From positions 186,001 through 250,000 of the forward strand of contig JABSSW010000048.1 in NCBI GenBank assembly GCA_018902385.1: a stretch of DNA of 64,000 bases. The letters are read 5' to 3'. The notes under the pieces were generated by a model. That model did not search any database. It had not been told where the DNA came from and saw only the letters and a program-made list of their open reading frames with translations. The position numbers and the translations under genes were made by a program. This DNA is from Physcia stellaris (lineage: Eukaryota; Ascomycota; Lecanoromycetes; Caliciales; Physciaceae). Of the stretch, positions 1 through 42,180 are shown one piece after another (the first letter of the stretch is position 1; each line of letters starts with the position of its first letter).

Positions 1-1740
1 TTCAATCATTCGATTTGTCAAGAAGAAACAAATAAACTGACTCAAAAAGACAAATTCGAAAATTAAAAACGTGTCGCATTGAACATTGTTGCAATTAGTG
101 CAAAGTCGAATCAAATTGAAATCACTCAATCATTCAATATTAGGCGAAATTCAATTTTCTGTTTTTCAAAGTTCAATCAAAAAATGATTGACATTTCAAT
201 AAATCAAACATCTGAAACAAGTTCAGACTCAGTAGCGATTGACAATGTCAAAACGAAAACAGAAATCATTGTCGCATCATCAAAAACTGAATTTTCAATT
301 ATCGTGAAAATCGAAATTATTGTCGCAACAAAAACTGAACTTTCAAACAATGTTGAAACAAATGCATATAATCAGACACTTTTTCTCGAAAGAATTGACA
401 AAAAACGAAAACGTTACAAAATTATTTCAACATTTGAAGCTCAAGTTTATTCTCAACAATTTATATTTACGCTTTCTTTGCAATCATCTAAAAAACGATT
501 CAGATTTAATTTCGAGAATCTTCAGCAATTCAATTGAAATGTGTTTATTGATCAACTCTTTTCAATCAATCTTATCAGCAGAGTAAGAGTCATTCGTTAT
601 TTATACGTAAAACATTTCGAAACAAAGTTTTCTGACACTGTACACGAAATTGCACAAATCATAATTGATCATTTTCGCGAGTCAAACGAGAAAAACACTG
701 AGAATTACGAGTATCAATTTTTTTTTTTCAAATTCGTCGAACTTTCATTTATAAGTTCATTATTTAGTTTTCAAATATCGAACTCATCGAATTCTTTCGA
801 TTTCTTTCGCTTAATCGCACGAACTTTTTTCAAATTTTCAAAATTATCATGTTCAATTCGGCAACTCAACTCGACGTCGAAAACGTTTTTTTCATCGTCT
901 TCGTTTTCGTTTTTTTTTCTCTTAGAATCATCATCAAAATCAGTGAGTCTCAGAGATATCTCAAGTGAAATCGAGAAATGAAAGACGTTTTTAAGTGAAC
1001 TCGTTTGTGAAAATATATTCAACGAACGTTTTCAACTGAGAATGAAAAAAATGAATTGTGTTGTATTGTTTTACGTACAGTTGTGAACGACGACTTGTAT
1101 CATAACATTAAAAATACGAATATGATCAAAAACGTTTGAAAAAAAATCATCAAAATTTGCAAATTCAAGAAATTCAATGCGCTCATGACTATTTATAGCA
1201 AATTTGAATTTCTCAAAATCTTTTTTTGCGTCGATATCAATGAATATGAATTCAAATTTCGAAACATCATTAACGAACTTGTCATTTATTCATTCAATTC
1301 AAAAATGAATGAAAATTGACTTATTTACAAATATTTTGCGAATCTTTCAAAATTCGCTCGTTTCTTCATTGATCGCTGAATTTCGAAGCATGAATTTTTC
1401 GACAATGATCAAAAAAATGATTTCAAACACGTTTTTTCGAACGTTATTCATTCATACGAAATTCAATGCATCAATTTTTTTGAAATTGCGATCATCAACG
1501 ATATTGATTTTGTTTTTTTAATTATCGATTTTGTTTCAAATTTCATCAAATCGTTTCAACAAAACGTCATTTTCGAACACATCAAAATTATCATTCAAAA
1601 AATCAAATGATGCGATCATTGTCAAAAATTTTATCATGATATTATCGAATGCATCATCAAGCATTTTCATTTTGTCGTTGTCAAACAAATTCGAAAAAAA
1701 AAAAAAAAACGACGCAAACGCAAAAATCAACAACGCAACG

Positions 1741-1794
1741 ATAATCAAAATCAAAATCAAAATCAAAATCAAAATCAGAATCAGAATCAAAATC
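1741..1794. repeat. TCAAAA hexanucleotide tandem repeat
   Basis: About eight tandem copies of a TCAAAA-like unit, with TCAGAA variants near the right end. It is a simple repeat within the AT block, with no coding meaning visible. Confidence 0.8.
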
Positions 1795-2799
1795 GAACGA
1801 GAAAAAACAAAACAAAAAAAACAACAAGAATAAAACGAAATTCGACGAAAATTTCTGAAAATCTGTGAACGAAGCGATAATCACGCATTCGATTTTCGTC
1901 GAAATTGTTGTTTTTTCGAAATCAATCAATTTTGACAAATTCATTGTCGTCAAAATTTTTTTTTTCATTTTTGTCATCATCAAGATTTTGAATTTCAACA
2001 TCGTTTGATTGTTCGATACGAACGTTTTTTTTCACATGATTAATAATCGTTGATTTTTCATCAATTTTGTTGTCATTTTCGATATTTCAATTGAAAACAT
2101 AAAAAAAAAACTCAAATTTTTCGATTACGATATTGTGCGATTTTTTTGCGACATTTTCAACGAAAATCGTTATTTATTCATTCATCAAATGCTTTACGTT
2201 TCAAATTGCATTTATAATTTTTTTTTTTTTTTTCAATTTCAGCAAGACGATTGTTTTTTATTTATTATATTCAACGATTTCGCAATGAACAACAAAAACA
2301 TTCGTGTTTTGAAACAACAAAATTTTTACGTTTTTCAACTCGACAAATTCGTGATTTGTTTAATTGTCAATCAAAACACGTTGAAAATGTGACACGAACG
2401 ATTGAATCATTTGAACATTCAAAATATCATTCAAATAATTTATCAACATGATATTGATTTTTTCAAATTATCATCATCGAATTCGTGCATTTTCTGCGAA
2501 AAATCAATGATAAAACGAAATTTCATCGAAAATTTATCAAATCAAAACGTCATGTTGACGATTTCATTCACGATAATTTGATGAATTTTTTTTCAAAAAA
2601 ACAAAATGATGTTTATTGAATAATGATTTGAATTGACGATTTCATTCAAATGTTTCACGTGAACATTTTATACGACAAAACATTTTTCGAAATTTTGATT
2701 TCATTCAAAAATTTTTGAATATCATTGAACACGATCATTTTCGTTGCATTCGTTTACGAATTGACAACGATGATGAATTTTTTGAAAATGTTTTTACGA

Positions 2800-5700
2800 T
2801 TTATCGAGAAAAACGCGACATCATAATGAAATTTTTATTGTTGAAAATTTTCAAATGAACGAATGCGTTGAACGTTTTAATCAAATTATCATGCGCAAAA
2901 TCAACACATTTTGAAAAATTCAAAACTGCTCATAAAATGATGATTCGAACTTGTTAATGTTGTCAATCACATTCGCAACGCTTTCATTTTCATTTTCGTA
3001 ATCGACGACAATGACAAGTCAATATTTTTTTATCAAAAGTCTATCGATCATGTTTATTTTATCGAAAAATTTCGTCGCATCGATCAAAAAAAAATATTTG
3101 ATAATCAAATTCAACATTGATTGAAAAAATTTCAAATCATCGTCAACGTGAAATTTTGATAAAATACGATGAAAAAATTATATATCGAATGATCATCATT
3201 TCGAACAACATTTATCGTTTTTTCAACGTCGAATGATTGAACAACAAACGATTTCATTCAACGACAAAATCATTTGCGCAAACATTTAAAAATCAAATCG
3301 ACATTTTTTTAAACAATTTGAACGTGAAATTCAAAAATGACAATCATTGCATCGATGTCATTTTTCGTTTCACACAAATTCAATCGCAAAAATTTTTTCA
3401 AAACAATGCGTTCGTGATTTTTGACACGTTCGATTTCGAAAACGATTTCGAAAAATCGCGAAAACAACGTCAATTTGCTTTTTCGTTTTTCATTTTGAAA
3501 AATTCAATTCGATCATTTTTTACGCTGTTTGATGATGATGTCGACGAATTGATCATCAACATTTTCGATTTCGTTCAATTCGAAATCGTCAATATTGTCA
3601 ATCAATTCGAAAAAACGTTGAAATAATATTTTTATTTGCGTTTTCGTCGCGATTTTTCAATGAATTTTTTGATTTTGTTGATTCAATATGTTTTTTCAAA
3701 TTTTCACAAATTCAAAATTTACAACGAGACAATGACGAACGTTCAACACAAAATAAATTGACAATTAAATATAAACAATGAAATGCAATTTCATAAAAAC
3801 AATGACATTTGAAAATTCGTGTTTTTCGTGTTTCAAAATCGTAAAGTTTTTTTGATAAATGAATTTATAAAACAAAAAAAAAAATCAATGATGAAATGAT
3901 CAAATATAAAACACGTTGATGTGTTCGAAATTTCGAACAAAAAAAAATTTTGATTATCACGAAACGTTTTCAATCGTGATTAAATTTATGAATTACAAAA
4001 TCATTTTCGTCATCGTCGTTGCGAATGATTGAAAAATAAAACAAATAAATGTCAAAATCGTTTTTTTGTATGAAAACATCGATGAAAAAATTTATGTGAA
4101 AATTTTTCATGAATATATTGATTTTAAACGAAAAATGTATTGTCGTTTACGCAAAATTTTTATGAATTCAAACAATCGTTTCGAATTTGATTCAATATTT
4201 TGATCAACTTTTTTAAAAAACATGAATTTTTTTTTTTGAATGCGAATCAAAATGTTTTTTTTAACGACAAAATCATTATCGTTATTTACGTGAACGATTT
4301 TTTTATTGTTGAATTCAACAAAAAATTCATTCGACAAATCAAAAAAATTTTCAATAAACGTTTTCAAATGACGAACATGAAATCACTTGTTTATTATTTA
4401 GACATGAACGTAACACGAAATAAACAACAACGAACTTTTTGTTTCAATCAAAAAATTTATTTGAAAAAAGTTCTCAGAAATCATGAAATGTGAAATGTTA
4501 ATTATAAAATTACATTTATGAACGTCAACATCAAATTTGAATTTGCTGATTTTGATTACATTTGTTTCGTTTTCGACAAATTTCGTTATCAATTCGTCGT
4601 AAATTTTTTCATGTACGCGATGTTTGAAATTCGTTTCGACATTGCATATATGATATCAATAATAAATCGATATGCATTTAATTTCACGAAAAATCATTGA
4701 AAAATTGTCATCAAAATTTTCAAATATTTTCGACATTTTTTCGATTTGTTTTTCATTTTTTTTGAATTTTTTCGTTTTTTGACAAATTACATCGATGTCG
4801 ATTGAATTGACGACAAAAAAATTCGTCGTTCAATTTTCGATTACATTTTCAATTTCGATAACGAAATTATCAATTGATCATTCAAACGACAAATCATTGT
4901 AATTTTTTTTATTTGTGAAATCGAATATATGAATCAAATTCAAATTGTCAAAAAAATTATCTGATTATCGAATTTGTTGAACGAATTGCAATTTTTCAAT
5001 GCGATCAAAAATAATTTAATTGTTTATGAAATTTTTGTTTATTGTTTCGTTGTCATTATTATTTATTGCGACAATCAAAAACACAAACGTTAATTCGTAA
5101 TTTCAATCAACACGTTCGAAACAAACACATCGATATTCAACAACATTTCGTCAAAAACAAAATGCAAAACGATATTTTGAATTTGTAACATGTTTTTAAT
5201 GATCAACAAATTGTCGACGATTTAATCAAATTTTTGTTCAAAAACAAATTTTTGAAATTTCGTCGCGACATTGATTTGATGTAATCGAAAAATGTTGTTA
5301 TTTGACGAATTTAAATAATTTTTTTTTTAAATAATAATTCGTTCAATCGAAATCATTTTTTGAACGATTAACACATTTTAATCAAAACACAATCATTTTC
5401 ATTTAATGATTTTCATGAATTTTTCAAAACGAATTTGTTTATGAATCAAAAATTTTAACGTTCAAATCGAATTCAAAAAACGTATCAAAAAATTTCTGTT
5501 ACATTAAACGTTTACAAAAATTTCATCAAAAAATTTCAACATTCAAATGATTTCATCAAAAGTAAAAATTTATTCAAAATTTCAACATTCAAATCAAATC
5601 GATTTTCGTCAAAAATTGATTTGAAAACGTTTCAAAAACGTTCAAAACGAACACAAACATCAAAAATTCGCATCACGAATCAATGTTCAAATTCAAAAAT

Positions 5701-6365
5701 CGTTATCATTTTTTTCGAAAGACGAAACTTATACAATTCATCGAGAATGCATTCAATCGTTATCATTTTTTTCGAAAAACGAAATTCATACAGTTCATCG
5801 AAAATACATAAAAAAAAAAAATTTTATAATTTCACGTTTAATTCATCAAACAACAACATTCGAACAAATTATTCAAATGTTTAATTTTCAAATCACATAT
5901 CAAATACGTACATTATTTCGAGCAAAAATTATTTATTTTCGCATTTCAATCATTTGTGAAAATTATTCATTGTTTATTGTTAACGTTTGAATTATGTGAA
6001 AATTATTCATTCGTTTTTTCGAATCATGTGAAAACATTATTCAATATTTTTTATTATTTACATTTATTATTTTCGTATTTTCGAAAATTCATCATTTGCA
6101 TTTTTCATACGTCAATTTCATTCAACAACGAAATCACATGAAATCATTCATATTTTTCATATATTTTTCGAATTCATTTTTGATTCAAAACAATAAACAT
6201 ACAATGAATTTCAAAAATAATTTTCAAAAATCGCGTTTTTGTCAAAAAAATACATTTTTTTTTATTTTCGCGCATTCAACAAAACGTTTCATCATCGACA
6301 AAAATTTGATTTCGAATTTCATATTGATTTTATCGTCGTCGCATGAAATTTTTTCTCGAACATAA

Positions 6366-6404
<39 letters not shown>

Positions 6405-6622
6405 CACAATTTTTTATTAACATTCACATCTCAAGAAAAAATGTGAAAGCTGTGAAAATTGTGAAAACAAATTAGAAAATACAAAATGCTGAAAAAATAA
6501 ATTTAAATGAAAATGTCAAAATTCAAATTTCGAAATTAGTTTTATATTTTTGTCACGTGATTTAGACGATCTTGACGTTTCAATATGTATATAGCGAACT
6601 CAAGTTCTCAGCATTCTTAACA
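2800..6622 (+). mobile_element. Ty1/Copia-type LTR retroelement remnant
   Basis: This is a heavily decayed Copia-family fossil on the plus strand. Recognisable parts lie in Copia order: integrase core end near 2855-2905 (an NExVERFNQ-like stretch), reverse transcriptase about 4130-4490 (an LxKxLYxFKQ-like stretch, then a YVND catalytic-box counterpart near 4290), the RT/RNase H connection at 4518-4700 (a MYAM...RxDIAY pattern) and the RNase H end near 5130-5180 (an HIDIQxHF pattern). A purine run at 6433-6441 is followed by TGTGAAAG at 6442, so 6442-6622 is a candidate 3' LTR. The left end was not found and probably lies further left. It is broken in well over ten places. Decay by hypermutation prevents dating. 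Confidence 0.8.
6367..6401 (+). repeat. 35-nt poly(A) tract
   Basis: An uninterrupted run of 35 A residues lies 40 nt upstream of the candidate 3' LTR of the Copia remnant. It could be a slippage-expanded A tract or the poly(A) end of an inserted LINE/SINE or retrocopy. No LINE coding was recognised to its left. Confidence 0.7.
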
Positions 6623-8779
6623 ATACAATGCGTTTTATCTTTTACTTTTTGACACGATTAATAAACGTTTATCGTTTAAACATATTTTTTCATGATATCG
6701 ATATTAATATTCGAAACGAAAAAATAAAAAAACGAAAAAATTTTCAAATTCAAAATTTTTTGTCAACAAATCAATCATTCAATCATCATATCGAAAAATT
6801 GTAATAATACGAAATTAAACATTCGATCATGAAAACAATAAACAATTGATAATCAAATTATTTTTTTTTTTCGAAATTATTCGAAAAAAATGTGTTTTTT
6901 TTCAAATTTTTAACGCAAATTGATTATTGAATTCGAACAAAAATATTTCGAAATGCGAAAATCAAAATCATAATGATTTTTTAAATTAATGCAACGTCAA
7001 AACAAACAAAATATATCAAAATTTCTGTTAACATGTTGATTTCAAAAAATTTCGATGTTTAAAAAAACGTATGTAAAAAATGAAAATTTAAAAAATTCGA
7101 AAAACAAAATCAAAAATTTCGTCAAGTAATTCGATTATCGAAATTCGAATAATTTCAAATAAAAAATTAATTTCAATCATTTTACAATTCGATCAACGAT
7201 AAATTCAACAAATTCATATTGTTAATCGAAATCGATCGAATTCGTACGATTGAATAAATAAAATGTAAATAAAAAGCAATTGCAAAACGTAAATTGTTTT
7301 GTAACGATTAATAAATTAATATATTACATTTCAAATTATACATTTTTGATGTCAATAATTCATTAAATTATATTATTTCTAATACGAATTTTACACGATT
7401 GATGATTTTTTTTTGATTTTTTAATTTTGATTTTTTTTTTCAAATCGAATCGTTGTAAATCGTTTAATTCGTCGATATTTCATGTTTGAACGTCGTTTTG
7501 AAAACATTTATGCAAATATGTACGAATTAATTGATTTTTTTTTTCGAAATAACAATCGATTTAATTGCATCGATGAATAATTACACGTTTTGATAATATA
7601 TTTTGTTCGTCACGATAACATAAATCGTTGTTCAAAACGATTCGAATTTTCGATAATCGAAATAATCGATATTTGTTAAATGTCATCGACGATTTGATTT
7701 GTTTGATCTGAATATTTGTTCGTTGAAATGATTAATTTTATCGAAAAAAACGAAAAGAATTTCTTTTTCACATGTAATTAAATTTTATAAGTCGAAATTT
7801 CTCGAAAATTTTTAATGTATCTTTTTTACATATTTTTGTTTTCAACATATGATAACATTATCGTTACAATCAATCGTCATTTTGTACAATTTTGATTTCA
7901 AAAAAATTTTATTTTGACAATCATCATAAAAATATTCGTTTATTTGAAAATATTTTTGATTTAATTTGTTTGTTTTTATTTTATCAAAATTTTCGTGTTT
8001 TCGCAATTTTGTTATTCGATGATTTTTTCATTTCATTTTTTTCGATCGACTTTTCATCAATGATCATTGTTTGAATATTTTTTTCTGTTTGTTTTTCAAT
8101 TTTGTCTGTGTAATCAATTTGTGAAAACTTTTCAAAAAAAATTTCACATTTTATTATTCTGATTAAAAAAACAATTTCAGACATTTTTCATTAATCGACA
8201 TTTTGATTTCTGTTTTTAATGAAATTATTCAATTTGCGTAATTATTTCACGAATTTTATCAAATCGATCACGAATTTATTTTTTTGTTCAATAGCGAAAA
8301 TCAACGTGCGATTCAAATTTTGATTGTCAAAAATTTTCGATTTTTCAAAATCAAAATCAATGATTTTTTTTATTTATTTCAATGAATCAACGACATTGTT
8401 TCATTACAAAACGTTATCAATCAATTTCGTGTCGATAATCAGCAATTCAAACAATCAAAAATTTCTTGCAATTTTTTGTTTCGATTTGAAATTATCAATT
8501 CAACGTTCAATAATTCAATTTTTTCATCGATGTCGCGCGTAATCAAACTAAAAACGTTCGTTCAATTTATTGTTTTTGATCAATTTGATATTTTTGTCAA
8601 ATCGAAATTTTGACGAAATAACGTTTCAAAAATTTGTAATTTTAATTTTTCGTCACGAACATTTAATTATTTTTTCATTATCAATTCTGATAATGAATCG
8701 AAATTTTTCGTCAATTCATCATCGAATCAAAAACGATTGACAATGAACATTTCATCAGCGTTCAAATTAACTGTAAAAA
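6623..8779. other. AT-rich spacer without recognisable genes
   Basis: About 2.2 kb of strongly AT-biased DNA between the Copia remnant and the Gypsy element. Only short, compositionally driven open frames are present (for example 7892-8074). I recognised no retroelement domain or host gene. It is presumably older, saturated repeat debris. Confidence 0.6.
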
Positions 8780-8968
8780 TGTAAACACTGCGTGACTAAA
8801 ATGTGCGAATAATAGTATTAATTGCTATGATAAATGCTAGACACATAATAGAATTAATTGTTAAAAAAACAAAAAGAAATTCGTGAAACTTCGAATATAT
8901 AAACACGAAATGCGACAGTTAAATTCACAACGTTTTAACGTTCGCTTGATCGACTTCGTTTTATTACA
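8780..8968 (-). repeat. 3' LTR of the Gypsy element
   Basis: A 189-bp direct repeat of 19318-19506 with TGTAA/TTACA ends. On the minus strand it is preceded by a purine-rich tract (seen on the plus strand as a T run just after 8968), which marks it as the 3' LTR. Confidence 0.8.
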
Positions 8969-11900
8969 ATTGTTTTTTTTCTGAATGATCGATTTTTCGC
9001 GTCAGCTATCAATGTCTTTATAGTATATCAGAAATGTATCGCAACAACGTTGTTTTGTAAATAATTTTGTGCTTTCGACGTGTAATTTTGAAACATTGTA
9101 ATTCAATAAACAAAAATAGCAATAACAATGTAATGCAATTTCAAATATCACGTTCGTGTTGTGAAATCGAATCGAAATAAATCGCGTCGTGTGTTGATGA
9201 ATGTTTATTTCAATTTTTCGATTCACTTTTTGAATTTTTTTTTAAACATTTTTATTTCATAGCATGATAAATATTTCATTTGATTTTTTTTGTTTTTGCG
9301 ATAACAACAATTATTGCGACAATGATGTCAACATGATATATCGTTGTTTGTACAATTATCACATCGTTTTTGCAAATGATGATGTTGTCGCAATGATGTT
9401 TCAATGACGACGAAATTGATTTTCGAACGTCGACAATGCAATGCGTGTGTTAACGATGCAATAAATTATAATTTCATTCTTTTTTTCGTCGTTGCTTGTT
9501 ACGTTTCGCAAAAACACGCAATTTGCTGTTTTTGTTGTAAATGTATTGTAAATAACGATGACGTTGCTGACGCGTGTTAAACTGATAAACTTTTTACGTT
9601 CGAATTGTTGAATACAATCAATACGACAAACATGTATTCGAATCGCGATGTTCGCGATCGCATTGTAATTAAATTCAATAAACAAATACACACAATTGTT
9701 TCATATCAATTTGACGCGTAACAAAATCAATTCATATATGATGTTAACGTTGCGTTCGAAAATTTCGCTATGATTCAAAACACGTTTGCGTTTTTTCTAA
9801 CGAAAACAAGCAAAACAAATGCGAATTTTGCAACAAAAACTTTCATTATTGTGAAAAAAACAATGTTTTTTACAAATTGCAAAACAACGTTCGCATTTTC
9901 GCTGTCAAAAATAACGACAATTTGAAATTGATTTTTCAACACTGAAAAAATAATAATATACGATTTTTGACGCATAACGTGATTAACATGAAACAAAATG
10001 ACATAAAAAAAATTCGTTGTTTTTTATCAAAATTTTTTTTCGCAAATTTGCGTTGATTGTCACGTCAAAATTCGTTGAAAAAAACATCATTCTGTTTATC
10101 AATTTTTTTTTTTCGTTTGTTTCTGCTTTTGTTCGAAAAAAAATTCGAATTTTTTCTGTTTCGCTTTTCGATTTTCGCGTCGTTTTTTTTTCGATTTTTT
10201 TCGTTTTCGTTTCGTTTGCGTTTGTTTCGTTTGTTGATTTCGTTGCGTTTGCATCGCAAACAAATTCGTTTGTTGTCGCGTTTGTTTTTGCGTCGATTTC
10301 GATTCAATCAAATCGCGTAATCAATGATAAACAAAATTTCATTAAACGCGACGACAATTAACATGACGCAATCGAAATCGATTTGATTGTTGTGATGTAA
10401 ATTTTGATTGATAAATTTATTGACGCGTTGATTTACATTTTCGTGTTTTTTTCGATTTAATAATCGCATGATTTTGTTTGTTGTTGTGTTTTTTTTTCGT
10501 TGAATGTTGAATTTTGTTTTTTGTTGTGACGTGTTGTTCTGTTGTTTGTTTGCTGTATGTAAATTGTGCATGTAATCAAAAACAATTTACAATATCATTT
10601 TATTGTTTGTGTTTTTGCGTCGTAATTATTATTATTTTTGCTTTTTGAATCGTTCACGTTTTTTCAATTTTAAAGATTGACGTGTTTGTTTTTTTGCTGA
10701 AAATTTTTCGCTCGATTTCGTTTTGAATTTGTTTGTTTTTCGACGTTTCGCAATTTTTTCAAATTTGCGTAATTCGCGCGCATTTTCGAATTTGACAATT
10801 GCGTTTTTCGCATTTTCGAAATGTTTCATTGATTTTCACGAATTTTCATATGACGATAAATTTATTCATGCAATAAAATATTCAAATTGATTTTTTTTAA
10901 TGCGCTTGTTTAGCATTTGCGATATCTTTTGATTTTTTTTTTCGTTTTTCATTAATATTGATTGCGATTTTGAATTTGCGTCGTCACGACTATATCAAAA
11001 TTCGAATAAAAAAAAACATGAAACACAAAATGTATAATTCATATTGTTTAAAAAAATCAAATTCGTAAATTTGCGTATTTATTTTTTTGACAATTTCGAA
11101 AAATTCAATTGTTTATGATCGATTTTTTTTGAAACGCAATGTGCGTATATTTACATCACGCAACAATATTTTTTTTTTCAAATTCAAAATTTTTCATTAT
11201 ATGATTTTCATTATAATATTTGATTTGCTGTTCGAAAATCGTTTTTCGCAATTTTATTAAATGCGTTCGATTGTTTCGCAACGTTTTTGCTTTGTTTGTT
11301 GCAAATTTTTTTTTTTTTTGAAAATTGTTCACAAAATCGCTGCTTAGAATCGCAACGTATTCAAACAAAAACTTTTAAAAAACTTGATCAATGTTTGAAT
11401 GTTTATTATTATTGTAAACAAATTGTGTCATAAATAACAATTTTGATCAATTATTTTGTTTGAAATTGCAATACACACGCAAATAATATTCGAACACAAC
11501 ATTTTGTTTTTTTGTTTGTTCATTTGTTTGTGAATGAAAAACAATGTTAAATTTACGTTTCGTTTTCAAATTTCAACACAAAATAAATCAGAAATTGTTT
11601 GTGAAAAAAATTTTTCGATTCGAAATAATGTTACGCATCATTTCATGACGATATACGAATTTTCGTCATAACAAATTCGCAAAATTTATCGCGTTTAACG
11701 TTTTTGTGATTGTTATATACGTTGCGTATTTCGTCAATTTGTTTATCAATATTAATATCGAATCGTTAATTTTTTCAATGTAAAAATTTCTAACAAAAAA
11801 CATATTTGTAATGAAATTCATGATAATTGTATCGAATAATTGTTTTTTTTTTCGACGAAATTGTTATCATATCGTCATAAAATTTATGTCGATAAATTCG

Positions 11901-12368: not shown

Positions 12369-12576
12369 TATTGAAAGAATCATGAGTGATTATCATTCTA
12401 TTGCTCTGAATTTCGTTGTTTTAGTAAATTACATGCAGATGAAAGCACAAGAAGTGTGCGGATGTCAAGGCACTAATTTCAACAAAAACGCACTAGTATT
12501 TTTTTCGTCAGATTATATTAACTGAATTCTGACTGCAGCATCTGCACAGCATATCTGCGAAAATTGTATTTCAACA
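12369..12576 (-). repeat. 3' LTR of the nested Copia-like element
   Basis: A 208-bp repeat matching 15435-15642 and, less mutated, 25393-25589. On the minus strand it begins TGTTGAAATAC. Confidence 0.85.
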
Positions 12577-13348: not shown

Positions 13349-13486
13349 TAGTACGTTTTCCCGAAACGGTACTATCTGAACGTGAGCATCTTGATCAGTA
13401 CACTTTCCCGAAATTGTACTGTTTAGTAGGTTGCTTTTTCTCTTTTAACAATTGCACGTACAGTACGCTCTTTTGAGTTGTACTGT
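13349..13486. other. Three consecutive AGTAC...GTACT hairpins
   Basis: Three short inverted repeats lie at 13349-13374, 13396-13421 and 13460-13486. Each has an AGTAC/GTACT stem. The first two also share a ttcccgaaa loop core. They sit between the ORF and the 3' LTR of the nested element. The repeated architecture suggests a structured RNA segment of the element or degenerate internal repeats. No function can be assigned. Confidence 0.5.
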
Positions 13487-13923
13487 CACTCTTTTCTTCT
13501 CGTATTTATCGGGCGAATAACGAAGTCGCAAGGTGTAAAGAGTAGATGAATTTTCGTGTTAAATCAAGACGAAGTCACAACAGAAATAAGTTTTTATTCA
13601 TTAGTGAAACAATAAAACAAAGTATACAACAACTTTTAAAGCTTCCTCAGGCCGAAATAGGACGGGAGGGACGGATAAAAATTCATTAAAACAACAACTT
13701 TTATGCTTTTTCAAGCCATGGCCGATCAACGGTTAATAGGGTGAAGTGGGCGGGCAAAACAACAAACGACATGCTCCAACTCTCCCAGAGTAGTGACTTT
13801 CCCGAAAAGAGGTCAATACTTCCCCAAAGTAGGGCGAGGAGGAGCGAAACTCCAATAACGCTGCCTCATGGGTATCTCATTGTTCTCAACTCTTGAGGCA
13901 TTTGGCATGGCTCAGCCGGTGGG

Positions 13924-15072
13924 TCAATACGTGACGAAACGCCCTTGACAATGTTTGCAAACAGGAGGCGAGCGAGAGAATGCCGAATGAGAAGTGCGCA
14001 TCGAAGGAGAAGAAAATCGGGAAATTCGCGAAGATGACGTGCGGGCCGAGTGTTTCACCGAGACGTGTGCTGATGCAAATGCTTCAGATTTGGCCGTTTT
14101 CGAAGCAGGTGAGGTCGCCGCATGGAAGTATGACGTAATGCGACTTTGTATGGGACCACATTTGTTTGCGGAACTGCATTTGCCAGGGCCACGAAGAGAA
14201 AACGAGCGCATTTGGTGCCGCTGCAGGCCAAATGGACTCGGCTTTCCAGCGAACATGCGGACCAGGTCGTCCACGGTGAGATAGGGCCTCTGAATGCCTT
14301 GATGTTTCGGCGAAGGGGTTCGAGGCGGAATAAGCGGAGCAAGCGGGCAACAGACTGCGGGTTTCTCCAAGGCTTTGCTCATCGATTTGGGTGTCGCAAT
14401 CGGGAAACGAGAGGGTTTCGGCGCAACGACTGGTCGTGAGGCGATTTCTGCCCAAGATATCGATTTCTTTGGTGTTGCAATCGACGAGGATTCTGAAAAG
14501 ATTTCGGAAGAATGTGTGCTCTCTGAACGTTCGTTTACAATTTCTGGTGCGGGCATCGAGAGAGGTATGACTTTCGATGACGTGGCGGGTGAGGAGGTTA
14601 TCGATCGAGGTGACGAAGCAGGAGGTTTCGATTCGGAAGCAGATGAAACAACGGACTCAACAGGCTGCTGAGCAGGCGTCGATTTCGGTTTCTTTGCATG
14701 GCGAGTACGAACATGCTCATGAAACTTGGTGTTGTTGTCAAATCTTGTCTTGCAACGCCTGCAGGTATATCCTTCAGTCCGCTTCTTGATCAGGCGGGTT
14801 TTTTTTTGTTGTTTCAACAACTCTTTCGCTTTCTGCTTTATCTTGTTTTTCATGATCAACTCGTGCTTTCGGGCATGATAGGTTTTTTGTGTCTTTTTCG
14901 CCTGCACGTACCAATTGCAACGCAAAGTCTTGGCATTCTTAGTCAGATGCATGCTATAAAGCGTTTTGAAATTTTGCGTCATTGAGTGATCATCAGATAC
15001 GTGATCGCAAAGGGCAGACGAAAAAGATAAGAGATTAGATGTCGAGGTGGTCGCAGAAATAAAAGACGTCAT
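13924..15072 (-). CDS. C2H2-finger ORF carried by the nested LTR element
   Basis: A 382-residue open frame starts about 360 bp after the 5' LTR, at the position where a Copia gag-pol would normally begin. It contains one C2H2 zinc finger at about residues 104-125 (CX2C-X12-HX4H). A strongly basic lysine/glutamine-rich stretch precedes it, followed by a long Ser/Pro/Thr-rich, probably disordered region with an SWAEIASRP stretch near the middle and a YLTVDDLVRMFAGKP motif toward the C terminus. The last residues contain another CxxC pair. I have an impression of similar ORFs accompanying retroelements in Leotiomycetes, but no function is established. It could act as a nucleic-acid-binding, Gag-like or accessory protein. 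Base composition is near normal and tryptophan codons are kept, unlike the flanking element. It looks whole. Several overlapping plus-strand frames are shadows. Confidence 0.6.
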   Translation of the reverse strand: MTSFISATTSTSNLLSFSSALCDHVSDDHSMTQNFKTLYSMHLTKNAKTLRCNWYVQAKKTQKTYHARKHELIMKNKIKQKAKELLKQQKKTRLIKKRTEGYTCRRCKTRFDNNTKFHEHVRTRHAKKPKSTPAQQPVESVVSSASESKPPASSPRSITSSPATSSKVIPLSMPAPEIVNERSESTHSSEIFSESSSIATPKKSISWAEIASRPVVAPKPSRFPIATPKSMSKALEKPAVCCPLAPLIPPRTPSPKHQGIQRPYLTVDDLVRMFAGKPSPFGLQRHQMRSFSLRGPGKCSSANKCGPIQSRITSYFHAATSPASKTAKSEAFASAHVSVKHSARTSSSRISRFSSPSMRTSHSAFSRSPPVCKHCQGRFVTY

Positions 15073-15434
15073 TCTGATTGAGTGATAGATAGATTTCGCG
15101 TAGAGATTTCGATATCGTAAGGTAAATTCGATAGATAGGCGAATTCGCGAGGAATTCGTAAGGTGAGTAGATAGATCGAAAGGTGAATAGGTAGGTGTTG
15201 TTATCGATGTAACTGAAAACGTATTGAATAGTATTGTGTATCAAGATACTGAATGTTGCGATATGCAATTGAGTCGTTCTGGTCTGGTTTGACTGAATAC
15301 TCCCAATGAAGTTGATTATTGCTGAAATATTGCAAAATCTGCTGTATTGCTCGACGGCTGAATATTACTGCTTCGACATGCTGTAGTTGGTACTAGATGT
15401 AGTAGCGAAAGCTGCTAACTCGATTCTCATAATC

Positions 15435-15642
15435 TATTGAAAGAATCATGAGTGATTATCATTTTATTGCTCTGAATTTCGTTGTTCTAGTAAGTTACAT
15501 GCAGATGGGAGCACAAGAAGTGTGCGAGTGCCAAGACATTAGTCTCAACAAAAACGCACTAGTATCTTTTTCGTCAGATTATACTAACTGGACTTTGATT
15601 GCAGCATCTGCACAACACATCTGCGAAGACTGTATTTCAACA
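15435..15642 (-). repeat. 5' LTR of the nested Copia-like element
   Basis: A 208-bp repeat matching 12369-12576. The leader just inside it (about 15070-15434) is also repeated at 25005-25392. Confidence 0.85.
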
Positions 15643-18600
15643 GTAACAATGTTATGCAATCGCGTTGTCGATGTTGCAAATTTGATTGAAACAAACACAC
15701 GTTGATCGTTTTGCAAATTAAATTGATAATTTTGATTGCGAAATTTGTTTCGCAAAATAAACAAAAATTTATCGTTGTTTTTGTCGTTATCGTTCGATTT
15801 CATAAAATCAAATTTTTTCGACGACGCGTTCGTAAAATTCAATTTGTTTTTGCGATATTTTATATTGAAATCAAACGCAATTAATTTTTCAATTTAACGA
15901 ATTTGTTTCGCATTGAATTTTTTAATTGTCATAAAATATCGAAAATTGTTGTGATCAAAAATAACGCGAATGAAATGTTTGTTATTTTGCAAATAATGTT
16001 TTCAATTTTTGAAATCAAACATTATCGCATACAATTTCTTGTCATGTTTATTTCAATTAATTTTTGTTTTTTTGAATTTGTAATTGAAAAACGCAATAAA
16101 ATGTCATTGATCGTTTTTGTTTTTTTGATTGAGCACATTATTTGTTTCGCGATCAAAAACATCAATTTTCATGCGTAATTTCGTTTTTCAATCATAATGC
16201 GTAAAAATAAAAACAATCGTGAATTTAATTTTGAACTCGTTGAACGCAATTTTAATTTTTTTTGTCATAACAAATGAAAAACGATTTTTTTTTTTCGCAT
16301 CACGCGTCAAATTCGTAAATGATGTTACGATTTGCGAAAATCTTTTAATAAAACGTTTATAAAATTCAGCAAATTTGAAAAAAAATTATGATATTTTTTG
16401 CATTTTCGAATTCAAATCAATCAACGATTGCGTTTATACGCGAACGTTTCATTTGAATTTCATTGCGTTCAATAACGAAATTTAAAAAATTGATTTTTTT
16501 TTTGTTGAATTCGCATTTTTTCAATTTGACATACAAGCGATAACGTAACAACGTTTTAAACATCAAACGAACATGTTTTCAATGTTGTTGTTCATTTTCA
16601 AAATAAATCAACATATTATTCAAATACATCACGCAAAAAACGTCAATGTATGACTTTAATGTTTCATTAACATAAAATTGAAAAATAACAAAAACGTTAA
16701 CAAAATCGAAAAACATAATTTGATATTCGTATTGTTTATAACGAATACGAAAAACAATTTTTCATTCATTTTTTTGACGAATACGAATTTTATGATACGC
16801 ATTTCGAATGTTTATCTTGATGAAATGTTTAACATTCGCGAAACGTTTTAGCGTTTCAAACAACAACGACAATGAATAATTGTTTTTGATCGTGATTTTA
16901 TTGAATTTTCGATAATTCACACATAAACGCAAATTGTCATTTGATTTTTTGACAAACAACACAAATGTTTTCGCAAATACGTTGAAAAAACGAATTCATT
17001 TTTTCGTCAACGCGTTTTCGAAATAATTGCGTATAACAATAAATTCGTCATGTAACATATTGTATATAAATTCAAAACGCGATTTTTTGTTTGATTGCAA
17101 ATCAATAACATGTTCGATTTGATTATACGTATTCAAATTGTTCGACAACGTTTTGAAAAATATTTCGATTATTTTTTTGATAATATCAAAAATGTGATCG
17201 TTGCGATTCATTTGTAACGTATTATAACGAACAACATTTCGTTTTCGATATTGATAATTTTGTGTTAAAAAAACATTTGATATAATATTGCGACATAAAC
17301 ACGATCGCGATTCGCAATGATAATCATAATTAAATCAACGAATTTTTTCGCAAAACAAAAATTGATTGAAATTTGTTTGAATTTTTCATAATTATCATCA
17401 CGATATAATTAACGACGATTATGTTAACGAATGTCAAAATCGACAACATTCAATTATGAATATTCAAAAATCATGTCGTATTTACGCATGTCAATCGTTC
17501 AAAAATTAACATTTTGTTTTTTTACATGTTTTTCATTATTTCGTGTCATGATATGCACGTTTTCATAATATTTATACATTTGAATCACACGATCGTCAAC
17601 AATTTTTATATGTTGTTTAACAATTTTTTTGAATTCAAACAATTGCATTTGTTTAACAAAAATTTGTAATATAAAATTCGTTTCGACATCAAAATCAATC
17701 AAACAAATAATTGTTGTATTGTTTGTTTGCGTAACAAATGTTTTGATTGATAACGTAATTATCAAAACACGAAATTTATTTCGTTTTAAATTTATTTTCA
17801 ATGTTTCAACGACAAACATCAAATTCGTTTTTTTTTCGACGATTGATTTTGATTTTGATTGCGTTTTTTTTGAATTTGCGCATAATTTTCACACACAAAA
17901 TAATTTGTTATGTGATTCGATTTGTGACATGAAAAACATGTGCGTTTTTCGAATTTTGAAAATGCGAAATTGTGATTTTGATTTTGATTTTTTTTTTTTT
18001 GATGATTTTGTTGCGATTTCGAAAATTGATTTTGATTGTTTTTTTGAACGTTGTCAAATTCAACAAATTTGTTACGCGAAATTTTTTTGTTTTTATTTTT
18101 GTCATTGTCATTGTCATTTTTTTGATTTTTTTGATTATTTTCATTATTTTGTTTTGTTTTCGTAACATTGTTCGACGATTTATTTAAAATATTATCGTCG
18201 ACAAACAATTGTTTCGCAATCAACAAATTGACGATTAATTTGAAATAAAAATCGATTTTATGATTTCGCATTTTTACACATTTGATGCGAATGAAAACAT
18301 GAATTTTGATCAACAATTTTTTTTGTCGTTTTTCGTTCGAAACGTGACGTTTCAATTTGTTTTACAATTTGATTAAATATTGATTGAACGCAACAATGTT
18401 TTGTCGAAACAATTGTTTGACATTTTCAATAACGATAATCGTGTTTATGACACGAATTATCGAATTGTTAAACAACGTCAACAAATAATTTTTATATTGT
18501 TTTTATGTTTGTTTTTCAAATTGAACATCAACATAATTACGTTATTGATTTTTTTTTGTCGTTATCAAAAACGACGTCGATCAATTTGTTTTCATTTTTT

Positions 18601-19317
18601 TTATTTGAAAATTAACAAAATCGAAAACGATATATTTTTCGCAATCACGCAATCAATTTTTCAAATTGTTTTAATTTTTATATTTTTGCGTGTTTGAAAT
18701 TTTTGATCGTGCGATTCGTTTTTTGATATGCGAAAACGAATTTTTATATTGATTATTGTTGTTGCGACGACGACGACGATTTCGATCACGTTTCGTTTTC
18801 GTTTTGATCAAAAATATTTTAAAATCATTAAATTTTGATTCAATTTTCAACATTTTGATACGCATTTTTATTTGTTTGAAAATCACGTTTGAATCGACAA
18901 TAACAAACACAACGACATCGTTATTTGACGACAACGAAACAAAATCATTTTTTCGTTGTGTTTCATTTTGATTAAAATGCGTAACAAATGTTGAATTGAA
19001 AAATTGATCAACATTTGAAATCAAAAATTCGAAAATTGAAATGTATTTAATTGAAACGTTGACATTATCAAAATCGACAAAATCATTGTTTTCATCAAAA
19101 TTTTCGAATTGAACATCATCGAACAACTCAATAACTCGATTGATAAAAAAAAAACATAAAAAAATTGTTTGATGAAATGATGTTTGATTGTGATACAATC
19201 GATACAATCGCACGATCACGAATTTGCGAACGAATTTCACGACGACGAAACGCATTTGTTGAATTGAACATTTTTAATCGAACAATTTTTGATGTAAAAC
19301 AATTAAAATTATAAAAA

Positions 19318-19506
19318 TGTAAGCATTGCGTGATTAAAATGTGCGAATAATAATATTAATTGTTATAATAAATGTTAAACACATAATAAAATTAATTGTT
19401 AAAAAAACAAAAAAAAATTCGTGAAATTTCGAATATATAAACACGAAATGCGACAGTTAAATTTGCAATGTTTTAGCGTTTGTTTGATCGATTTCGTCTC
19501 GTTACA
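19318..19506 (-). repeat. 5' LTR of the Gypsy element
   Basis: A 189-bp direct repeat of 8780-8968 with TGTAA/TTACA ends. A gag-like frame on the minus strand starts shortly inside it (about 19255). Confidence 0.8.
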
Positions 19507-19990
19507 AATCGTAAAAAAAATATTAACGATTTTGTTTTTAATTACACGAAAAATTGTATTCGTAATTCGAATTTTGAAAATTTTCGAAATTTTGAATTCG
19601 AAATGACGATCAATATCATTCAAAAAATTTTTTTGATGTATTATCGTTTTCATTTTTCGAACGAATTTATGATAATTTTTGCATTTCGATAAATAAATCA
19701 TCGCATTAATTAAACGTTCGATGATAATTTTAAATAATTGATTAATTTTGAATGTATCAATTAAATTCAACGATATTATCAAATTATTAAAACGATTCAA
19801 ATATTGTTCGAAAATTTCATTTTTGTTTTTGAATTTTATAAAAAATTTGTTTTCGAAAAATTTATTGTATGCATTATTCATTTTATCGAAATTATCGCAC
19901 ACGTTTTTCAAATCGTTTATTAATTTTTTAATGAATTTATACAAATACGCGTTATCATAATCGACACGATGTTCAATGATATTTCAAATC
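19507..19990 (-). mobile_element. Gag fragment of a second Gypsy-type element
   Basis: Immediately outside the Gypsy LTR, a minus-strand frame has the helical, hydrophobic-spaced look of a Gypsy Gag, with FEQYLNRFNNL-like and KCKNYHKFVRKM-like stretches. It reads up to the LTR boundary, which suggests that the 8780-19506 element inserted into this older one. Its other parts were not found. It is broken, and its extent to the right is unknown. Confidence 0.5.
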
Positions 19991-22899
19991 AATTTTTTAC
20001 AATAATTTCGTGCGTAATAAATTTTATTTTTTTCGTTAAAAAATTGTCATAAATTTGATTCGAATTTGATTTTCAAATGAATTTTTTATTGTTTTCATTC
20101 GTTATGATTTTCATAAAAATTGAAAATGTTTTGATATTTAATTTTATGTTCGTATTGAATACAAAATATCAACAAATGTTTTTTTGAAAATGTCGATTCA
20201 TAAAAACGTTCGAAAATTCGTTTTTGAAAAAATTTATTTGATTTTCGCAAAAAAATTTTAAATAACAATTCGATAAAATTTTTTTCATATCGAAAATTTT
20301 AACGTTTAAATTTTTTACGAATATTTTTTTAATCAAAATTATCAATGTAATTTTTTTGACGTGTTTGTTTATTGATAAAATTTAAATTTTTTTTTTCAAA
20401 ATTGTTTTATTCAATCGAAAAATTTTTATTTTTTCGATTAATTTATTTTTTCGAATTCGATATTGATTTCGACAACGTTTCATTCGAACAATTTTCATTT
20501 TTTGATAAATTAAATTTTTGTCGACAATTTGATTAAACAACAATTAATTTTTCGTTTGAATTAATCGAAATTAAAAATCAAAAAGTTTTTGAATTTGAAC
20601 GATATTTTGTCGTTTTTGTTTTTTTAATTGAATATTTGTTTCAACATATTTTTGTTGAATTTTTTGTTTCAATTTTTTTATCAAATTCATTTTATCAAAA
20701 AACATAAAAATATTTTGTATTTAATTAATTGATCGATCGACAACGTTTTTGTTAAATTTATCAATATTTTTCATTACAAATGAAATTGATGATTTGACAT
20801 TTTTGTCAACGAATTTAAAATATAAAATCATCGTTTTTTTTTGCGATAATAATTTTTTGATTCGAAAATTCGAATTCGATAATGAATCGTCGATGAAAAT
20901 GTTTGTGTCGAAATCGACATCGAATTTTGATAATCGAAAATATAATTTGAAAATCATTTTTTCGTGTCGACGTATGAAAATTTTCGAATGCGATTTTTTG
21001 TGAATTTTCATTTTTTTCATTTTTTTTCGATTTTGAATTAAATATGTCGTGTTTCAATAACGAATTCGAAAATTCAAAAATTTTCGATTTATAAAGTTTT
21101 TTTTGAATGATTTGATTTTAAATATTCAAAAATTTTTTCATACGATTTAATCGAATATTGAAAATTGATTTTTAAAAAATTGATTTGATTGTTCGAAAAA
21201 AAATTCTGATATTCGATAAAAAAGTGTTTTTTCAACGAAAAAAATTCGAATAATGAATAAATTTTCGAATTCGATTGATACGATTTCGATTTGTTATGTT
21301 GACAATAATATATTTTGTAAATGTTTCAAATTTCGATTTTGAATGAATAAAAAATTTAAACGAATCAATTTAAATATGAAATTTTTTGAAGTTTGATTTT
21401 TGATTATGTAATAAAATTCGAATTTTGAAAATTTTCGAAAATTAAAATAAAAAGAAATGTTTGAAAATTCGAAACGTTATTTAAATGATAAATATGTATA
21501 ATTTAACATTTCGAAATAAATGTTTCGAAATGTTTGAATAATAAATAAAATGTGATTTTTGATAAATTGCAAAAAATGTAACACGAATTTCAATATTATG
21601 TTTTATCGTTCACGAAACAAAAATTGATTTTTTTTTTCGTCGTTCAATTTGTATATCGAACACGATGTTCTCGATGAAATTTTTTTTTCGCATTTTGATA
21701 TTAATTTTTCAAAATGAATGTTACATTGATATTTTTAATCGTAATTTTCAATTCACGATATTTTCGTTAAAATTGAATAATATTCGAAAAATTATTATTG
21801 TGTCATAAAATCACAATTTTCGATTCACGATATTTTCGTCAAAATCGAATAATTTCGAAAATTATATATTATATTGATATTTTCAATCGTAATTTTCAAT
21901 TCACGATATTTTCGTTCGAATTGAATAATTAACGCATGTTGTTCAAATTCACGATATTTTCGTCAAAATTAATTAATTAATGAAAATTCTTTTTCGCGTT
22001 TTGAAATTTTATTTTTTCAAATTGAAATAAACGATTGTTACAATGCGTCGAAATCGTTTTCGTCGTACGCAAAAATTGAATATTTTTCATACATGAATAT
22101 ACAATCACGATTGTTTTTGAAATCGTTTTCAAATAAATGATTCGTATCGACGATAAATATTGCGTATTGAAATCGTTCGAACATCATCAATATGAAATTG
22201 ACAAATAATTACATTTTTTGAATAATCGTCAAATTGTCAAATAAATGAATAATTAATATTGTGTCAAAAAATCGTCATATGTAATTAATTGTATTGAAAT
22301 TGACGAAAATATTAATTATGCAACGATATTAATTACATGTTAAAAAATTTTTTATTTGCGATAATCATTCGATTAATCGTTTCGATGATTCGCAAATTCG
22401 TTTAATTCGAACTTGACAAAAATTCGAAATCAAAATCATTACAAAAACAACGAAAACAATTTTAAATTGAAATGTTATTTTCGATGAAATGATAAATGTT
22501 TAATTATAATGAATAATTTTTAATGTTTTGTTTTATCGTAAAAAAAATTGTTGATTTAATAATTTAAATTTGAATTTTTAATAATTTGTTTTGACGATTA
22601 TTTTTGCAATTCGTTTTTTCGATAAATTTTTTTTGATTTATCGATTTTCGCGATAAATATTTTTTTTGAAAATTTTGCACAATATTAAAACGAATTATGC
22701 TTTTTTTTTTTCTTTGTTGATTCGTTGAATAAAATCGAATTTCGTTGTTCAATTTGATTTTGAAAAAAGAAAATAACGTTTTAAAATTTCGCATTGAATT
22801 TGAAATTTTGTTTATTGAATAAATTGTCGTATTTCGAACTATTTGAAAATATTGAATAATTTAAAAAAAAATATAAAATGTCATGCATTGATATAATAT
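19991..22899. other. AT-rich debris, no recognisable genes
   Basis: About 2.9 kb of saturated AT-rich sequence with short frames only (for example 22564-22794 on the minus strand). It contains a degenerate tandem repeat at 21752-21975. It may include further remains of the gag-bearing element to its left. Confidence 0.6.
21752..21975. repeat. Degenerate tandem repeat around a TCACGATATTTTCGT core
   Basis: Four copies of a TTCACGATATTTTCGT core start near 21752, 21823, 21900 and 21949. They are followed by AAAATTGAATAA-like sequence and spaced about 48-78 bp apart. It looks like a decayed minisatellite. Confidence 0.7.
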
Positions 22900-24713
22900 T
22901 GTAAAACGCATGTCTAGAAAACAAATAACATAACGAGAATATTTGATCTAAAAAGCAAATATATACAGATGAAAATCAAAAAATATGTGTAAAATTTGCG
23001 AAAGTCAAATTCTAATCACGTGCTTTTTTCAATTCTGCGACAATGTTTTCGAAACACGTTCGTAACATTATTTTTTTTTTTTTTTTCAAATTTCGTTTCG
23101 AAACGATTATTCATTTTTTCTATCGATCGACATTGCGAAAAAATTCATTGATTGTGATTCAGATATCTATTTGATCGTGATTGACGCTAAAAACTTCATG
23201 ACGAATGCGATAAACGTAAAGAAATAAAATTCAAAACAAAAAAAAATGCGAAGACAAAAAATATAAAATCACGAAAATGAAAATTTTGATCGCGAAAATG
23301 TTTGCAAATTAATATGATGAAACGATCGATGTTTCAAAACAAACGAAAACAAAAACAAAAACAAAAACAACAAAACGATATCGATTTCGCGAACGTATAT
23401 TGTTTCAAACTTTTCGAATTTGAATTTTTCGAATTTTTATTAATCGACGCGTTCTAATTGATTGCAAATATTCGAAATATGACGCGTTGACGACAAACAA
23501 ACAAAAATCTGTAAAAAAAACGAATTGATTTGATTGCATGACAAATTTACATTGATTGTTGTTTTTCATTTTTTCATGTCATTTGTTTTCGTATCGTTGT
23601 GTGTAATAAATTCATTTTTCATTGATGTTGATTGCGAAAATGTAAAAAATCGAAAAAAATAACGCATGCGTTTTTGATGTCATTGAAGCAAACTAATTAA
23701 TTATTGTAGCGATTCATTGAATGTCGTTGAAATAAACAAAAACTAAAACGAACGAAACGAAACGAAACGAATCAAACGAAAATTTTTGTTTGATGTTTTG
23801 AAATTGTTTGTTGATTTGATGATTTGATGTGAAATTGTTGTTGTGTGTGATTTCTATTTTTCTTTTCAACAAAACGATGTCTCAACGCTTAAACAAAAAA
23901 ATGACGATTGTAAAAATCATTTTGATGTAAATGAACAAATTGATTCGAAAAAACATGAAAATCGTTTATTGACTGAATGTCGACTGATTTCGACGAACAA
24001 GAAAGTCGATTATTGATTGTCATTTTCGCAAATTTACGATCATTTTCGTTGACTCACGATGCGCATAATAAAAATGAAATTCAATCATCATTTTCAAAGA
24101 AAAAATTTCACATTTTGGCGATTTTCTTTTGATTTGCGTATTTTTACAAATGATTTGACGATTTTCTTTTAAACATTCGCGTATTTTTACGAACGATGAA
24201 AATTTTGTTTTTATTCGTTTTTTTTACGAACAATTGACGATTTTTTTTTATCTCGCGTATTTTTACGAAATTGACGATTTTATTTTGTTTATTCGCGTAT
24301 CTCGACGAGCAATCTGTTTCGACAAAACGTTTGACGAATGTTAGTTAATTTCGCAAAATTCAAAACGAAAAATCGTGTTGTGTTGAAAACGTGAAAATGA
24401 TTTCGTCATCGTCATTGCAATTGATAAAAAGATTTCGTGTTGAAAATGCGATCGTCACGAAATGATCGATTTTGTTTTTTTTTATTCGCAAATCGTTTGC
24501 GAATGTAAATTTTACATCGTTCGTCACGATGAAAATCAAATATAATGTAAAACGCATGTTTAGAAAACAAATAACATAACGAAAATATTTGATCTAAAAA
24601 ACAAATATGTACAGATGAAAGTCGAAAAATATGTGTAAAATTTGCGAAAGTCAAATTCTAATCACGTGTTTTTTTCAGTTTTGCGACAATGTTTTCGAAA
24701 CACGTTCGTAACA
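22900..24713 (-). mobile_element. Small non-coding LTR element (TRIM-like)
   Basis: Two 168-bp direct repeats (22900-23067 and 24546-24713) have TGTAA...GTAACA ends. They enclose about 1.5 kb. A perfect 5-bp target duplication, aatat, lies at 22895-22899 and 24714-24718. A long T run just after the left repeat is a polypurine tract on the minus strand, which sets the orientation. No protein domain was found inside, so this is a terminal-repeat-in-miniature or similar non-autonomous element. The nine or so LTR differences are all transitions. Structurally it looks whole as an LTR-bounded unit. Its parent family is unknown. Confidence 0.8.
24117..24310. repeat. Minisatellite inside the TRIM-like element
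   Basis: About four to five degenerate copies of a 40-60 bp unit built from TGACGATTTT-like and CGCGTATTTTTACGAA-like segments, lying just inside the right LTR of the 22900-24713 element. Confidence 0.7.
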
Positions 24714-24718
24714 AATAT

Positions 24719-25004
24719 TAATACATAATTACACGAAAATTTCTAAATAAAAAGCAAATACATGAAAATTTGCAAAAACATATGTAAAAAATTTGATTTC
24801 TCGAATGCGTCAAAACGAGTTTCGATTTTAACATTCGATGTGATAAAATAACGATATTAACACGATGTTAATTTTGTCAAATATTGAATTCGATGTTGAA
24901 TTCGATGCACGTTCGTCACAAAGAAAAAATGATCAAAAAAGAAAATCAAATGCGAATTTTGATTCGAAAATGAAAAATGCGAAATTCGCAAAGAAAATAC
25001 GAGT
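24719..25004. other. AT-rich spacer at the compartment border
   Basis: Short AT-rich stretch with no gene. The part near 24725-24800 vaguely resembles the middle of the 168-bp LTR just to its left. Confidence 0.4.

Positions 25005-37096: not shown

Positions 37097-42180
<5,084 letters not shown>

Follow-up and report, generated by a model that had tools for sequence, protein, structure and literature searches.

Repeats in Physcia stellaris have lost CpC and CpT by C-to-T mutation, probably through a RIP-like process guided by the 3' neighbour

A stretch of 64,000 nucleotides from Physcia stellaris (contig JABSSW010000048.1 of assembly GCA_018902385.1, positions 186,001 to 250,000; hereafter the window, with positions counted from its first letter) joins an AT-rich island to gene-bearing DNA of ordinary composition, and the question raised by this locus is which process stripped the island of G and C. 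A preliminary description had held that CpT, CpC, ApG and GpG were nearly gone from the AT-rich half while CpA and TpG stayed abundant, and the counts bear this out more strongly than it was put: over 1-25004 the observed/expected ratios (o/e) are 0.12 for CC, 0.28 for CT, 0.30 for AG and 0.31 for GG, with CA at 1.37, TG at 1.22, CG at 2.91 and TA at 0.42, and over 25005-64000 the ratios for CC, CT, CA and CG are near 1. A depletion of CpA and TpG together with an excess of TpA is not found in these counts. The loss of C in front of a pyrimidine (CpY, with RpG on the other strand) is firm. We consider it probable that the AT-rich blocks are repeats mutated from C to T by a repeat-targeted genome-defence process resembling repeat-induced point mutation (RIP), in which the 3' neighbour sets the target; that the process is of the RIP type is likely. 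The island and its border are laid out as follows:

1..1500, no strand: less mature part of the island; successive 500-bp bins hold CC 0, 0, 0; GG 1, 1, 0; CT 16, 21, 12; AG 16, 24, 5
1501..12335, no strand: saturated CpY-hypermutated block; 1501-12000 holds CC 0, GG 0, CT 90, AG 56, CA 754, TG 621 and CG 550, and 11901-12300 is alike
12336..15642, plus strand: nested element of a high-copy family, partly mutated and bearing terminal direct repeats at about 12336-12576 and 15402-15642
15643..24994, no strand: saturated CpY-hypermutated block; 16001-24500 holds CC 0, GG 1, CT 41, AG 29, CA 451, TG 562 and CG 467
24995..25564 (C48:210995-211564), plus strand: fragment from the same family as the nested element, at the island edge, matching copy L007 at 79%
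25565..64000, no strand: unaffected gene-bearing flank, GC 0.49, dinucleotides close to expectation

The saturated blocks were treated as a 19-kb core (1501-12000 plus 16001-24500) and compared with the flank at 26001-64000. The core contains a single CC or GG dinucleotide (CC 0, GG 1), and no 500-bp bin of 1001-12000 has either. CpY and RpG together number 146 in 1501-12000 against a mononucleotide-shuffle mean of 1312 (sd 25), and 71 in 16001-24500 against 1005 (sd 22), giving 217 in the core versus about 2,317 in shuffles. With all CT and AG pooled, their density in the core is 8.4% of that at 26001-64000; counted per trinucleotide, CT retention is about 11-12%. Trinucleotides were also summed in groups whose members differ only at a 5' neighbour that can mutate in its turn, and these sums are about equal in core and flank (per kb, ACA+GCA 31.2 vs 31.5, ACG+GCG 25.5 vs 24.9, TCA+CCA 31.7 vs 36.2, TCG+CCG 28.1 vs 29.7); thus the cytosines of CpA and CpG have mostly been retained and those of CpY lost. 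Stripping the flank of every CpY and RpG predicts a GC floor of 0.244, which is the value observed in the core, although chance plays some part in so exact an agreement, given a different starting sequence and the persistence of some CT. The claim that the whole AT-rich half is affected is correct for the saturated blocks and too broad for the nested element at 12.3-15.6 kb, which is only partly mutated. Window positions 1-1500, adjoining the saturated block, are in an intermediate state, with CC and GG nearly gone (2 in all) and a fair share of CT and AG kept; in the edge fragment, 100-bp bins are poor in CC and GG over the first 200 bp and normal over the remainder.

It follows from this composition that standard RIP indices misjudge the region, as the preliminary description had anticipated. 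Over 1-25004, TpA/ApT is 0.45, (CpA+TpG)/(ApC+GpT) is 1.41 and the composite index is -0.96, as against about 1.6, 0.2-0.3 and 1.3 reported for large RIP-affected regions (PMC7882544); normal DNA here has a composite of -0.50, so that the island scores as even more free of RIP than its surroundings.

The order in which contexts are lost was read from copies of the nested element, the 43.97-Mb assembly of 147 contigs being searched with it; 240 first-look candidates were obtained genome-wide, 40 of them were scored, and 92 matched pieces resulted. Across 30 copies GC spans 0.53 down to 0.28, and CC/GG disappears before CT/AG: o/e is 0.10 versus 0.98 in copy L020, 0.00 versus 0.42 in copy L014, and 0.61 and 0.95 in the window's own copy. 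CpY dominance, as earlier noted, is therefore correct, with the addition that CpC is hit before CpT. Eleven unmutated copies (GC >0.505) were set against 16 mutated ones (GC <0.47), three intermediates being excluded. Summed over copy pairs, in which sites are not independent, C is read as T at 59.7% of CC (n=39,517), 36.3% of CT (38,061), 6.0% of CA (39,880) and 7.3% of CG (34,015), the corresponding baseline among unmutated copies being 8.3%, 7.3%, 3.9% and 6.2%; after subtraction the rates for CC:CT:CA:CG stand at about 37:17:1:0.5. The -1 base has a small effect (CC 0.58-0.65, CT 0.35-0.38), as has the +2 base apart from a lower value at CCC (0.50), which is expected if the next C goes first.

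A Ty3-type retrotransposon family follows the same rule. With pieces of an unmutated copy on contig C5 as reference (13 alignments of at least 150 bp, 7 loci), C-to-T changes are found at 936/1000 CC, 85.5% of 928 CT, 14.1% of 967 CA and 6.9% of 908 CG, other changes at C amounting to about 2%; in the best of the alignments (1465 bp, in L006) the counts are 158/162, 205/214, 30/191 and 6/152. Both strands are hit alike, since same-strand adjacency gives z of -2.0 to 2.3 in 16 copies and CC/GG and CT/AG fall together. An impression of strand-biased patches, gained from 100-bp bins, was gone after allowing for the sites available per strand. RIP-like machinery with a 3'-pyrimidine target had been suggested at the outset, and the rule indeed holds against unmutated copies in two unrelated families, with repeats targeted where tested.

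The earlier ranking of CpG second and CpA rare has to be reversed, as CpA ranks behind CpY and ahead of CpG in both the Ty3-type comparison and a comparison of six copies (at least 92% identical) of the retroelement at 16001-19000 and in L055-L059. In the latter, CpA-to-TpA changes reach 7.8% (n=12371), CpG changes 2.3% (n=10270) and transversions 0.3%; saturated copies differ from the window copy at 65-81 CpA and 15-31 CpT positions. In the four most alike copies, CpA loss appears to depend on the +2 base (CAT.165, CAG.157, CAC.120, CAA.060). This weak CpA component speaks against a strictly CpY-only rule. Direct-repeat pairs within the window had been described as differing mostly at CpY, and they do so to different degrees: in the pair 12368/15434, C/T at CpY accounts for 21 of 22 differences (15 CT, 6 CC; the other is CA), 15 of 23 are CT in the pair 8769/19307 (with 4 CA and 4 CG), and 7 of 10 are CT in the pair 22896/24542 (with 1 CA, 1 CG and 1 transversion). 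However, the 8769/19307 repeats may not be long terminal repeats (LTRs), because an open frame on the minus strand (19399-19983) overlaps one of them.

The signature is not confined to the window. Twenty random 3-kb stretches were drawn from the 32 largest contigs, within their first 540 kb; one stretch (C32:338597-341596, L054), with N at 2946 of 3000 bases (a gap or withheld sequence), was dropped. Cut into 500-bp bins, the others give 114, with GC <0.36 in 16, 0.36-0.42 in 1 and >=0.42 in 97. All but one of the low-GC bins hold at most 3 CC+GG, the exception holding 9; the 97 high-GC bins hold at least 28, with a mean of 57. Classical RIP index limits are passed by none of the 16 low-GC bins, the indices being negative there as in the window's island, and by 3 of the 114 bins overall, whose GC of 0.46-0.48 means that they are not islands. 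Likewise, no more than 3 CC+GG are found in one or both 1.5-kb flanks of 18 of the 30 nested-element copies retrieved. For comparison, the published assembly comprises 46.57 Mb on 184 scaffolds and the sequenced culture derived from ascospores; the text of the genome paper that was examined holds no RIP analysis (PMC7513301).

The same rule governs how reading frames are broken. Stops arise almost only by TGG-to-TGA change, because CAA, CAG and CGA contain the spared CpR whereas TGG contains GpG. When mutated copies are compared with the frames of unmutated ones, 362 new stops appear in 49,344 codon comparisons, namely 332 TGA, 23 TAA and 7 TAG; 271 of the TGA stops stem from TGG, of which 550 codons were compared, while CAA became TAA in 2 of 904 cases and CAG a stop in 4 of 736. 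In the 150 reverse transcriptase domains that were scored out of 527 candidates genome-wide, 250 TGA, 33 TAA and 3 TAG stops were counted, and 112 of the 140 broken domains in this set carry TGA only.

That repeats are the target is clearest for the mutated copy L013: it holds 12.9 CC+GG per kb and the DNA on its two sides 109 and 127, and the transition lies no more than about 100-300 bp from its ends. Mutated blocks matched as repeats wherever this was checked, the check covering part of the low-GC stretches. Several observations weigh against a RIP-like process. The usual mark of RIP, a preference for CpA, is absent (CA 1.37, TA 0.42, CpA 6-14% mutated). The unmutated nested-family copies L006, L007 and L008 (122-136 CC+GG per kb) lie within saturated flanks (0-2 per kb). 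Moreover, a pair of unmutated Ty3-type LTR elements, L065 (C5:1164500-1169500) and L066 (C12:58300-63300), both in saturated islands, is 96% identical over 6.7 kb, and its 204 differences in 5 kb have no CpY excess (CC.066, CT.070, CA.050, CG.045); 128 of 150 differences in the longest frame fall at third codon positions. The existence of this pair indicates that mutation does not always follow quickly. With 224-bp LTRs identical to each other, the C12 copy probably inserted recently and may be too young to have been mutated. Among the unmutated nested-family copies, for their part, identity does not exceed 84.5% in 55 pairwise hits of at least 1 kb, and no relative of L007 passes 86% over 1 kb in the 40 scored out of 212 candidates; such divergence would fit a mutator dependent on close similarity, with close duplicates being mutated, and the C5/C12 pair agrees with it only if young.

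These observations bear directly on an alternative that we regard as unlikely, though deserving of attention, namely slow decay: CpY in heterochromatic repeats would be methylated during vegetative growth, by DIM-2 or some other enzyme, and 5-methylcytosine (5mC) would turn to T, without any recognition of repeats in the sexual cycle. A DIM-2 homologue exists in the genome, Neurospora DIM-2 is described in a review as methylating non-CG sites with CpT preferred (PMC13297926), and a functional dim2 in Zymoseptoria is reported to promote mitotic C-to-T change at CpA (PMC8016269). Still, unmutated copies inside saturated islands (L006-L008, L065/L066) together with the mutated L013 in normal DNA mean that region alone does not decide mutation, even if the former may merely be young; the graded copies do not tell slow mutation from stepwise mutation. 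Somewhat more plausible, yet still on the doubtful side, is the overlap of two mutators on the same repeats, one strong and directed at CpY, the other weak, distinct from it and directed at CpA, for instance of a classical RID- or Dim2-type. The excess of CpA-to-TpA changes over CpG changes and transversions in the six saturated copies points in this direction, as do the variation of CpA loss with the +2 base, which is unlike CpY, and the presence of three methyltransferase homologues; conversely, a single enzyme with graded preference would give the same pattern, the +2 effect might be due to chance, and the pairwise counts are not independent. The earlier idea of a second process after RIP fares accordingly: a prior classical CpA round is not borne out, as CpA cytosines are largely kept, and two overlapping processes are possible.

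The remaining explanations are far less credible. Classical CpA-type RIP could be misread from residual differences between saturated copies, and CpT does dominate residual alignment differences in classical RIP fungi (PMC2621366, PMC7882544); here, however, the composition itself has an excess of CpA and TpG (1.37/1.22) and depleted TpA (0.42), and CpA is only 6-14% mutated relative to unmutated copies, which refutes this explanation for the sampled islands and leaves it very improbable at large. C-to-T change at dipyrimidines is typical of ultraviolet (UV) damage, and APOBEC enzymes make C-to-T changes. Nevertheless, damage of the UV type, or an APOBEC-like deaminase acting on cDNA, is just as hard to credit: TpC is not depleted as UV would have it (o/e 1.32 in 1-25004), and neither agent fits the slight effect of the 5' base and the equal treatment of both strands. 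An assembly or base-calling artefact, conceivable in a draft hybrid of Nanopore and Illumina data (PMC7513301), deserves almost no weight, as the signature is graded between copies, ends at element borders, fits codon-level predictions and occurs on many contigs.

In the RIP-like process favoured here, duplicated DNA would be recognised during the sexual cycle, as in RIP, and a cytosine methyltransferase homologue would then act on it, taking CpC first, CpT next, CpA some 10-35 times more slowly and CpG slowest. The inspection of the genome for such enzymes that had been proposed yielded four PF00145 profile matches in three genes, on C3, C5 and C6, with DIM-2, RID-type and DmtA-like homologues respectively as candidates, and one of these is probably responsible. 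The C3 gene (L002) aligns with E 2e-181 to PDB 9bap, which we take to be the Neurospora DIM-2 structure, and carries an ENV motif, and its match to BAH falls below the Pfam cut-off. The C5 gene (L003, P0001, 932 aa) falls into a clade of lichen proteins that share PPCQ and EQT motifs, the C6 gene (L001, C6:790057-794028) into one with PPCQ and EET motifs and 60-94% identity inside versus at most 48% outside. In L001 conserved C-terminal pieces sit in the next frames, and we read these shifts as probable introns and not as damage. Both the L001 and the L003 group are supported at 100/99 in a tree of 32 proteins, and the L001 group, joined by two further proteins, sits on a stem of 0.98 changes per column. 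The DmtA-like protein of this long-stem clade may be regarded as a lead to the enzyme, the labels RID-type and DmtA-like being presumptive ones that follow match-list names, with N. crassa RID absent from the comparison.

Further features of the window are listed here for completeness:

8769..8969, no strand: 201-bp direct repeat, partner 19307-19507, 89% identity
19307..19507, no strand: 201-bp direct repeat, partner 8769-8969, 89% identity
22896..23067, no strand: 172-bp direct repeat, partner 24542-24713, 94% identity
24542..24713, no strand: 172-bp direct repeat, partner 22896-23067, 94% identity
16477..16950 (C48:202477-202950), minus strand: reverse transcriptase domain (RVT_1) from a mutated retroelement, interrupted by 2 TGA stops (PF00078, E 6.8e-16)
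13924..15240, minus strand: open frame of 438 aa inside the nested element, from the list of open reading frames, with a CxxC...HxxxxH motif, zinc-finger-like by eye

The 438-aa frame gave no Pfam family above cut-off and one sub-threshold match, and the protein of an unmutated copy gave 0 Pfam families. GC-normal copies of the family (L006, L007, L008, L010, L017, L018, L025, L029) keep frames of about 350-530 aa with the CxxC...HxxxxH motif and without a Pfam match; they are about 75-85% alike, and several lie within saturated islands. The family may represent a non-autonomous element, or else a gene family that has expanded and survives by divergence. In the flank, a large frame at 38995-42198 on the minus strand matches a yeast YCF1-type ABC transporter (E 8e-268) and is an ordinary gene. 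Elsewhere in the genome, C12 at about 64.3-65.9 kb (in L072) matches itself every 150-160 bp or so, a tandem array within an AT-rich stretch.

With RIP as known from N. crassa and other Pezizomycotina the process shares exclusive C-to-T/G-to-A change on both strands, a gradation from older to younger insertions, AT-rich islands, the presence of RID-type and DIM-2 homologues, and confinement to repeats, here in the one clean case of L013. It differs in target order, CpC>CpT>>CpA>CpG as opposed to CpA>CpT>CpG>CpC in N. crassa; in Trichoderma reesei CpA and CpG are about equal, followed by CpT>CpC (PMC5496416). That CpT dominates in alignments is already known (PMC2621366, PMC7882544, PMC4352252). 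Magnaporthe oryzae, Botrytis cinerea, Sclerotinia sclerotiorum and Colletotrichum truncatum also favour CpT, but with CpA (PMC6180176, PMC4352252), and the CpT-biased families of C. truncatum are reported to have strong CpA loss, TpA/ApT of about 1.6 and a substrate index of about 0.1 (PMC6180176); in P. stellaris CpC leads and CpA is largely kept. Signatures met with in the open-access literature searched are CpA-led, CpA plus CpT, CpG-led or CpA plus CpG; a CpC-led or CpA-sparing one was not found there, subscription papers lying outside the search. The preliminary statement that no fungus with CpY as dominant context is described thus agrees with that literature, with the qualification that CpT beside CpA is reported for Magnaporthe oryzae and a Botrytis strain (PMC4352252). 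A survey of more than 1,200 fungal genomes describes RIP-like defences as sharing CpA preference (PMC12543289). Mutation of the CpG type, as in Microbotryum or Tuber, has repeat-associated C-to-T change in common with P. stellaris, where CpG is instead the best preserved context (2.91). The lichen fungus Cladonia rangiformis likewise has AT-rich, sharply bounded islands of transposable elements and RID and DIM-2 homologues, but its local GC peak of about 16% (PMC12542154) lies below the 24% floor for CpY-only mutation from 49%, so its context is likely broader than CpY. Classical RIP indices are reported for Endocarpon pusillum (PMC3897900).

A bolder version of the proposal, which we hold as a serious possibility while leaning against it, is that P. 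stellaris, and perhaps the wider Caliciales, has a mutator enzyme that reads a 3' pyrimidine, takes CpC first and excludes CpR, beside a separate weak CpA mutator. If so, the end state would be nearly deterministic, with every CpY gone and GC pinned near 24%; frames would be killed almost only via TGG-to-TGA change, and saturated copies of an element would stay alike. Because index scans call such islands RIP-free, similar systems may have been overlooked. A near-exclusive CpC/CpT mutator would mean that the context preference can invert while the remaining features look alike, that genes are disabled differently, the usual route from CAA and CAG to TAA and TAG being closed, and that target recognition by the enzyme would become directly testable through homologue swaps in Neurospora.

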